A DNA stretch of 64,000 nucleotides from Gemmatimonadaceae bacterium. Lineage in GTDB: Bacteria; Gemmatimonadota; Gemmatimonadetes; Gemmatimonadales; Gemmatimonadaceae. The position numbers were made by a program, and so were the translations under genes. The stretch is from assembly GCA_019186945.1 (NCBI GenBank), contig JABAQJ010000010.1:1-64000 (forward strand), in the 5' to 3' direction. Shown here in pieces: positions 19,268-61,207 of this stretch. Every line of letters starts with the position of its first letter. The stretch's first letter is position 1. The notes under the pieces are model-generated. The model saw nothing but the letters and a program-made list of their open reading frames with translations. It was not told where the DNA came from and did not search any database.

Positions 19268-22200
19268 CGTCCGCCAGGCAGCGATGGGGTGCCCGATCGG
19301 CACTTGCGTGCGCGATCGGGATCGTTCTCGCGGTGCCCGCCCACGCTCAAGTCAAGCCACCGCCCAAGCCCGACTCGGCGGCGAGCAGAATGCGCGCTGC
19401 CGGCGACACTCTCAAACCGGCCGACACGTTGCGAGTGGCCGGCGCGGATTCGGTGCCACGATCCCGCAGTCAGCAAGACTCCACCAAGGCTCGGAGAAAT
19501 GTCGTCTGGACCGCCCCCGATTCGGTGATGGCGGACCTTATGGCACGGGAGGGATACTCCGTCACCCGCTACGAAGGCAGGCTCGTGGAGTTCCTGACGA
19601 AGGAGCACACGATCTACCTGCGCGGCAAGCCATCGCAGGTGGAGCGCGACGAGGCGCTCCTTACCGGTGATACGATCAGATTCAACGACTCGACGAAGGT
19701 CGTGGTGGCGACCGGCGACACGCTGCTGCTTCGAGACCCCGCGCAAGGCCAGGATGACATTATCGCACTGGGCCTGCTTCGCTACGATGTCGAGGCCAGG
19801 CGCGGTCTGGTCCGCGATGTGACGACGACAGTGGAGAGCGGGGAGCGCTGGGTCGTGCATGGAGGCGTGGCTGCCTTCAAAGGCGATTCGGCGACCGAAG
19901 GATCTTCGTCGGCGTTTTATGCCCGCAATGGGTGGCTCACCAGCTGTGAAGAAACCGAACCGCATTATCACTTCCAGGCTCGTGAACTGAAGCTCGTCTC
20001 CAAGAACATCATGGTCGCACGGCCGGCAGTGCTCTACATCGCCGACATCCCGGTGGCCTGGTTGCCGTTCATTTTTCAGGACATGCGTTCCGGCAGGCGG
20101 AGCGGAATCATCCCGCCACGCTTCGGTTTCAGCGACATTGTGCGAAACAGCACCTCGTACCGCCGGACGATCGACGACCTGGGCTACTACTTCGCGCTCA
20201 GCGACTACATGGATCTGGAAACGTCCGTGGATTGGCGATCCGACGCTGGCTCGGGCGGAATAGATCCGGGTTGGATTCGCGGTAAGGCGCTCCTCCAGTA
20301 TCGCTGGCAGGATCGCTTCATCACGGGAAATCTTGGGGTCTCCTACCACTACCTCAAGAATGGGGAGACGAACAAGGAGTTCTCGCTGATGCATCAGCAG
20401 GAGTTCTCCCAGCGAACGCGTGTGACTGCTGACCTCCGGTACATGACGAATACGACGGTTCAGCGGAATACGACGTTCAATCCCTACCAGGCGCTGGGTA
20501 CGATCTCATCGCGCCTGAACTTCACCTCCGGGCGCGGGCCGTTCACGCTTTCGCTCGGCGGGTCACAGACGCAGTATCCGGGGCGGGACGAGTTGCAGCG
20601 CGACTTCCCCAGCCTCAGCGTTACGTCGAAGGCGATCAAGGTCGGCGAATGGCTGACATGGACGCCGTCCCTTTCGGCCTCGACCAGCAGCCGCCTTCAT
20701 ATCGATCAGGTCGGCGACTTCGCGTATCGCCTCTTCGCACGATCGGATGGTTCGCTGGATAGCAGCAGGATCGATCGCAGCAGTCGCAACTCCAGAATCG
20801 CCTTCGACACGCCCATTCAGCTCTTCGGGTTCAATTGGCGCAACTCGTTCAACCTTGCCGATCGCGTCAACGACTTCCCGGAGAGGCGTATCATCTTCCT
20901 GTCGCCGACCGATACGTCGAAGAAGGAAACGCGCGTCTACAAGCGGACCTATGTGACTGACCTGAACTGGGAGACGAGCTTCAGCCTTCCCAGTTTCTCG
21001 CAGGGCAAGTGGCAGGTCAGCCCGAATATCACCTTCCAGAAGGTCGACGGCCGGTCCGGGCTGTTCGTGCGCTCGGAGCGCACAGGCGGCAAGTGGGTTG
21101 CACAATCGCTCCGGCCATCCGTCGGCCTGAGTATCTCGCCGACGTTCTACGGGTTCTTTCCCGGCTTCGGCCCGCTGTCCCGCATTCGCCACTCGGTCCA
21201 GACCGGCCTCTCTTATGCGTACACGCCCGCCAGCAAGGTATCCGACGAGTTTCTTGCGGCGAACGGAGACACGCGCGTCGGCTACCTGGGCGATCTGACG
21301 CAGAACACCGTCCAGTTCACGTTCAACACCAACCTTGAGGGGAAGCTGCGCGGGGCTGAGGATTCGCTGGCGGCCGGAACTGAGTCCGGACAGGACAACG
21401 CCAGGAAGATCAAGCTGTTGTCCGTCAGCTTCACATCGCTGGCCTACGATTTCGAACGCGCGCGGATCACCCACAAGACCGGGCTGTCCACGAGAAACTT
21501 CGGGTACACAATCAAGTCGGACCTTCTTCCCGGCATCGACTTCGGCAGCGACTACTCGCTGTTCCAGGGCGATCCGATCAGCGATACTGCGGTGTTCAAG
21601 CCGTATCGGGAAAGGTTCTCGGGAAGCATGTCTCTTGGTGCGACCTCCGGCATCGTCAGGTTTGTCGGCCGCTTGTTAGGCTTCCGAACCGATACGTCAT
21701 CCGAGCGAGGCGAAGAAGGGGAGGAGGGAACGGATCGAGGAAGCCTGGCATCGCGTTTCGGTGGCGAGGCCGCGCGTCCGGGGCAGTCGCTCGGTGGTTC
21801 CCGCAACCGGGCATCGGCGTTCCAGATCCCGTCCGGCCAGGGTTGGCAGCTCAACCTGCAGTACTCCGCGACTCGACAGCGCCCGCCGGTAGGATCAGGA
21901 GTGGTCGCGCTCGACCCCACCGCCAAGTGCCAGCCCTTCAAGGACACGGATCCGTTCGCATATCAGTTGTGCGTCACGGCCAACAGCGCCCAGGCCGGCT
22001 CCTCGCTGTTCGAGAACACGACGCGTGGCGGAACGTTCTTCCGCATCCCGCCGCAGCAGAGCATGCAGGGCAGGATGTCCTTTCACATCACGGACAAGTG
22101 GGCTGGATCCTGGAGCACCACGTACGATTTCGTGGAGCGAAACTTCGCCAGCCAGGTGGTGTCGTTGCAGCGCGAGTTGCATGACTGGGATGCCGTATTC

Positions 22201-46855: not shown

Positions 46856-46889
46856 AACGGTACTTTCCCAGTCGGCGCCTGCGATTCAT

Positions 46890-46966
46890 AGGGGCCGGAG
46901 GGTCGCTCTCTGAGAAGGATGGTGCCCGGAACACCGCTTTGCTCAGAGGGCTTCACTCCGGCCTCT
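46890..46966 (+). ncRNA. Long near-continuous hairpin in the recA-recX spacer
   Basis: A 77-nt symmetric hairpin. AGGGGCCGGAG pairs with CTCCGGCCTCT (11 bp with one G-U). A 7x7 internal loop (GGTCGCT / GGCTTCA) follows, itself with three possible Watson-Crick pairs. CTCTGAG then pairs perfectly with CTCAGAG, a 6x6 loop (AAGGAT / GCTTTG) follows, then GGTG/CACC and a 7-nt apical loop CCCGGAA. Loops are equal on both arms, so the whole may be almost continuously stacked. It is not followed by T residues. It could attenuate read-through into recX, protect the recA mRNA 3' end, or be a protein-binding RNA or DNA cruciform. Whether it is transcribed as part of the operon is inference. Confidence 0.5.
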
Positions 46967-47086
46967 CGCGTCTTGGGACCTGCGGGTGTGCCATCACGAG
47001 GAAGTTGGGCGCGCTCCGGTGAAGCGCGATAACGCGAAAAGCTTCCGATGACTGAGCAGAGGCGACCCTGCTCCAGGTCCGCGTCC

Positions 47087-60941: not shown

Positions 60942-61015
60942 TGGTCGCGCAGGGACTCGAACCCCGGACCTCTGGTATGTGAGACCAGCGCTCTAACCAG
61001 CTGAGCTACGCGACC
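60942..61015 (-). tRNA. tRNA-Val (CAC)
   Basis: A 74-nt cloverleaf on the minus strand: acceptor GGTCGCG/CGCGACC with discriminator A, D-arm TAGCTCAGCTGGTTAGAGC, anticodon arm CTGGT-CTCACAT-ACCAG with anticodon CAC, and T-arm with GGTTCGAGTCCC. It reads GTG valine codons. The 3' CCA is not encoded (TACC follows), so the CCA-adding enzyme is required. Confidence 0.96.
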
Positions 61016-61133: not shown

Positions 61134-61207
61134 TGGGCCCTCTGGGGATCGAACCCAGGACCGTCGGATTATGAGTCCGCTGCTCTAACCGGCTGAGCTA
61201 AGGGCCC
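61134..61207 (-). tRNA. tRNA-Ile2 (CAU anticodon, lysidine-modified)
   Basis: A 74-nt minus-strand cloverleaf: acceptor GGGCCCT/AGGGCCC, D-arm TTAGCTCAGCCGGTTAGAGC, anticodon stem CGGA/TCCG around CTCATAA, T-arm GGTTCGATCC, no encoded CCA. The anticodon is CAT, which pipelines may name Met. The body (TTAGCTCAG and GACTCATAATC) matches the minor isoleucine tRNA, in which TilS converts C34 to lysidine so that AUA is read. It differs from initiator tRNA, which has three G-C pairs in the anticodon stem. Confidence 0.85.

Follow-up and report, generated by a model that had tools for sequence, protein, structure and literature searches.

The stretch of DNA analysed here (the window) comprises 64,000 nucleotides of a contig from a Gemmatimonadaceae bacterium and contains recA and recX, with alaS next after recX. 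The identity of the two genes that flank the recA–recX spacer, as given in the original prediction, is confirmed by Pfam matches, and the spacer coordinates yield the same length of 192 nt (Table 1). The closest named matches of RecA belong to a Gemmatimonadetes MAG (87%) and a Gemmatimonas MAG (85%). Two tRNA genes on the minus strand (60942–61015 and 61134–61207) are the window's only Rfam matches at curated thresholds.

Table 1. Position of recA, recX and the parts of the spacer hairpin in the window.
Feature	Position	Strand	Evidence or remarks
recA CDS, 348 aa	45809–46855	+	ORF; Pfam RecA (E 8e-140) and RecA_C
recA–recX spacer, 192 nt	46856–47047	+	
Whole hairpin in the recA 3' UTR; long, imperfectly paired stem-loop, single copy	46890–46966	+	fold z −4.6; covariance model 85.6 bits
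Lower stem, 5' arm (partner 46954–46965)	46891–46902	+	consensus structure; two-sided changes in 7/12 pairs
Middle stem, 5' arm (partner 46940–46951)	46905–46916	+	two-sided changes in 10/12 pairs
Apical stem, 5' arm TGGTG (partner 46932–46936)	46920–46924	+	100% of cells paired
Apical loop CCCGGAA	46925–46931	+	7 nt; CCCGG(A/U) in relatives
Apical stem, 3' arm	46932–46936	+	consensus structure and alignment
Middle stem, 3' arm	46940–46951	+	consensus structure and alignment
Lower stem, 3' arm	46954–46965	+	consensus structure and alignment
Degenerate U-tract position, TCTCGCGTCTTGGG	46964–46977	+	same position T-rich in most relatives
recX CDS, 238 aa	47048–47764	+	Pfam RecX_HTH1, HTH2 and HTH3

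The hairpin had been described as two perfect arm pairs plus GGTG/CACC, separated by internal loops of equal size (7 × 7 and 6 × 6). The arms sit where they were placed, namely GGCCGGAG (46893–46900) with CTCCGGCC (46956–46963), CTCTGAG (46908–46914) with CTCAGAG (46942–46948), and GGTG (46921–46924) with CACC (46932–46935), the last pair closing on the 7-nt loop CCCGGAA (46925–46931). However, the internal loops are not truly open, and the fold is near-continuous once G–U pairs are included. The minimum free energy of the RNA from 46890 to 46966 is −52.9 kcal/mol, compared with −36.1 ± 3.65 kcal/mol for shuffled sequences (z = −4.60), and none of 200 shuffles was as stable; the hairpin is, in this respect, the stable G+C-rich stem-loop expected of a terminator.

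The recA–recX spacers of one member from most genera of the family of Gemmatimonas (Gemmatimonadota) were sampled, and nearly all of them contain a long hairpin, with CCCGG(A/U) at its apex, whose stem sequences are unlike and whose tip is common. The hairpins span 73–92 nt in the 60 elements measured. The original prediction would have been refuted by a lack of covariation and of conservation in relatives, and both this conservation and the covariation described below go against such a refutation. To avoid circularity, spacers were also counted without requiring a hairpin: among the 23 members of the family whose spacer measures 60 nt or more, 22 have CCCGG(A/T) no further than 160 nt from the recA stop codon. 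The sole exception among these 23 (L028) is without a hairpin capped in this way; its gap between recA and the aligned part of RecX is 339 nt, with a possible start codon at +264. The element is absent in the four members with shorter spacers, in which recX starts at about +38, +26, −4 and −44 from the recA stop codon. The order's other families, in which recX usually adjoins or overlaps recA, have no such hairpin either. A 38-nt spacer (L016) carries a short 10-pair hairpin (GGCCGGCGCG...CGTGCCGGCC) without the CCCGG loop, perhaps a remnant, perhaps an independent terminator. The long hairpin is real and is kept after recA in nearly every genus of the family that has room for it.

Covariation in the spacers of relatives, proposed in the original prediction as a check, is very strong when counted as two-sided changes. 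In a MAFFT alignment of 33 sequences with 7-nt loops (A4), which was not fitted to the structure but is somewhat favoured, since some of its sequences were used to derive the structure, 93.5% of the cells are paired and two-sided changes occur in 19 of 29 pairs; two-sided cells number 139 compared with 49 in shuffles, none of 500 shuffles matches any measure, and structures slid along the alignment leave only 45–56% paired. In a second alignment of 20 sequences with 8–9-nt loops (A6), aligned by the model and hence fitted to it, two-sided changes occur in 25 of 29 pairs and again none of 500 shuffles is as good. Covariation above both shuffled and slid structures is what characterizes a conserved structured RNA. 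The suggestion that pairing on this scale is unlikely to arise by chance is corroborated by these results, together with the fold statistics and the conserved place in relatives, and a functionless inverted repeat, refuted by the covariation and by the constancy of place and loop, retains a negligible probability. Moreover, the stem cells contain 146 G–U and 12 A–C combinations, and this large excess of G–U shows that it is the sense-strand RNA that is under selection. The same asymmetry disfavours both an antisense RNA and a cruciform or other role at the DNA level, which had been listed among the candidate functions.

The window copy has no proper T-run, as had been noted: its tail, TCTCGCGTCTTGGG, never has more than 3 T in an 8-nt stretch downstream of the stem, which is below the usual requirement for a terminator, and the hairpin was not called by a terminator scan. 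In relatives, T residues were counted in 8-nt segments within 16 nt past the 3' arm, for the 75 of 79 elements with a recognisable arm end; at least 4 T are present in 65 of them (87%), whereas control positions reach this in 10% of cases, and at least 5 T in 52 (69%), as against 2% at control positions. A U-tract directly after the stem is, thus, the rule in the family, and the window genome is the exception. Setting the element apart from a terminator by its missing T-run and its length was therefore misleading.

The apical loop keeps its sequence across the family. Among 79 unique elements, 70 have CCCGGA and 9 have CCCGGT, although the five bases CCCGG are invariant by construction, because the elements were collected by requiring them; the count free of this bias is that of 22 in 23 members, given above. 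The loop, whose variants include CCCGGAA, CCCGGAT, CCCGGTA, CCCGGAAT, CCCGGACT and CCCGGAAAC, starts 45–142 nt past the recA stop codon, mostly at 55–75 nt, and is retained also in the window and in one relative (L021), both of which have a weak U-tract. Among 2346 long hairpins in 1.2 Mb from two genomes, CCCGG(A/T) lies directly at the closing pair only in recA's own, in a scan that needed six contiguous apical pairs and so missed the window copy and saw that of another genome (G021) only via the other strand; two further loci (L214 and L224) carry CCCGG(A/T) inside a larger loop in the same scan. The loop is, thus, unsupported as a genome-wide feature of terminators, no other long hairpin being so capped within that range. 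Invariance of a loop amid drifting stems usually means recognition by another molecule. Since the loop is kept despite stem divergence and U-tract decay and is not shared by other long hairpins, recognition in trans is the economical reading, and CCCGG(A/U) is probably recognised in this way; against this stands the fact that no conserved complement of the loop was found in the recA–recX flanks examined.

A candidate partner would be CsrA, which could bind GGA in the hairpin loop and control the recA mRNA. As in CsrA/RsmA hairpin sites, GGA stands in the loop in 70 of the 79 unique elements and the protein is encoded in the genome, csrA being found in all four genomes tested. However, nine of the 79 elements have GGU, some of them in CsrA-encoding genera (G028 and G183), and thereby lack the GGA that such a site requires; the usual context of these sites is ANGGA, which the preceding CCC does not fit, and the element lies in the 3' UTR, after recA, instead of over a ribosome-binding site. 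Control by CsrA is, on this evidence, quite improbable. A broader alternative is that the loop is the functional core and that the stem acts as a display scaffold or as an RNase III substrate controlling recA mRNA stability, with termination secondary or absent. The loop is invariant and the U-tract is not, a long hairpin with this cap occurs only at recA in the 1.2 Mb scanned, and a stem of about 30 pairs falls in the size range usual for RNase III substrates. Nevertheless, 87% of relatives have, immediately past the stem, the T-rich sequence that a terminator needs, which this proposal leaves unexplained, and no partner of the loop was found. It appears somewhat unlikely as the main function of the element.

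The hairpin is a single-copy feature. No second copy was found by DNA search in the 3.95 Mb genome of the window, and a permissive search with the model in six genomes gave no second credible copy. Two covariance models, R1 and R2, match in 78 and 112 of 179 family genomes, respectively, counts that depend on stricter filters, under which several genera are missed by score despite a clear hairpin (for example, L009 and L116); in about 395 genomes across the phylum, all matches of both models lie inside the family. With the two strands of the palindrome counted as one locus, there is one place per genome, with a sole exception (G066). The bare pattern GGNNCCCGGWNNCC has many matches per genome in the 179 genomes and is uninformative. 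Terminator-embedded uptake sequences and REP elements are likewise intergenic palindromic hairpins with a fixed core, but those are dispersed in many copies, and a dispersed repeat of either kind was rejected here on account of the single place per genome, with two in G066 only. Rfam 15 contains no family that matches the hairpin at curated score, and at a loose threshold mainly eukaryotic microRNA models appeared, far under the cut-off. A literature search returned no paper on a recA–recX RNA in Gemmatimonadota, and recA is absent from the main text of a survey of 104 motifs. As a conserved RNA the element is undescribed, although its kind is broadly known.

Genomes in which recA and recX are separated indicate which gene the element serves. 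In three of them (G022, G166 and G162), the loop lies 52–105 nt past recA, with recX 1.2–1.8 kb away and other ORFs in between. The hairpin stays by recA when recX is distant and is, therefore, to be assigned to recA and not to recX. At L257, L261 and L262, which represent a single genus (g23) with three genomes, the ORFs that separate the recA hairpin from recX are unrelated, and recX there, therefore, probably has its own promoter. In G066 (contig C33, L277/L278), two copies, at 2563–2636 and 20576–20648, are 81% identical and each has a strong T-run; one follows recA and the other precedes recX, 18 kb apart, with an exopolysaccharide gene cluster between them, showing that a copy can stand before recX without recA. 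This arrangement, together with the inverted repeat itself, could be taken for a DNA-level element such as a cruciform, a recombination or attachment site, or a REP-like repeat. However, no integrase was evident on reading the ORFs between the G066 copies, and an attachment site was rejected, the insert being an exopolysaccharide cluster; the single place in other genomes and the excess of G–U over A–C argue in the same direction, and a function of the DNA itself is highly unlikely.

A stem with a U-tract at the end of a gene, by the usual criteria, and a terminator at the same place in E. coli make a terminator the best reading of the hairpin body. In E. coli, recX is expressed via about 10% readthrough of the terminator after recA, as stated in PMC3542578 with reference to Pages et al. 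2003. The element resembles that terminator in its place and in the stem-loop and U-tract of most relatives, and would plausibly also limit recX; however, its stem is far longer and covaries, it has an invariant loop and, in the window, a degenerate U-tract, and it persists behind recA in genomes where recX is no longer the neighbouring gene. It also resembles the L17 downstream element (RF01708; PMC2864571), a clade-restricted 3'-UTR structure of one housekeeping gene, with a strand fixed by G–U pairs and an unproved function, but that element belongs to another gene and another clade and is not matched by Rfam here.

The preferred interpretation, with a probability of roughly 0.6, is that of a recA-specific 3'-UTR element with the body of an intrinsic terminator, a leaky or stability role in the window genome, and a loop probably bound in trans. 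The sequences themselves show the constancy of place and loop, the covariation of the stem, the action as sense-strand RNA, the U-tract of most relatives and the single copy per genome, whereas termination, readthrough and a partner in trans are inferred. In this interpretation, a terminator hairpin of about 30 pairs, with a U-tract in most species, would end most recA transcripts and give the recA mRNA a protected 3' end, and only a fraction of transcripts would read through where recX lies directly downstream. In the window genome, the degenerate U-tract would make the hairpin a leaky terminator or chiefly a 3'-end and stability structure. A protein or RNA probably binds the CCCGG(A/U) loop in trans and tunes termination or decay of the recA mRNA. 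Against the terminator part of this interpretation stand the window copy, with its few T and its absence from the terminator calls, and the fact that a plain terminator requires neither an invariant loop nor a stem so long. The original prediction, made from a single sequence, was right that a real RNA structure occupies the place of the E. coli recA–recX terminator, as the fold and the covariation of relatives attest, and its attenuator, RNA-stability and protein-binding candidates are retained; its contrast with a terminator, the cruciform and the antisense RNA are not, and it missed the invariant loop and the tie to recA rather than recX.

A more specific proposal, offered tentatively, is that of a recA-dedicated 3'-UTR switch, in which an RNA-binding factor acting in trans on the CCCGG(A/U) loop would alter termination or decay and set the output of recA, and of recX, after initiation. 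To our knowledge, no such post-initiation layer of DNA-damage control has been described in bacteria. In most of one family, recA, a gene central to DNA repair, is accompanied by this strongly covarying element, which offers a directly testable way into the post-transcriptional control of the gene. It also shows that a terminator-like hairpin that is easily dismissed may hold a second, sequence-specific layer.
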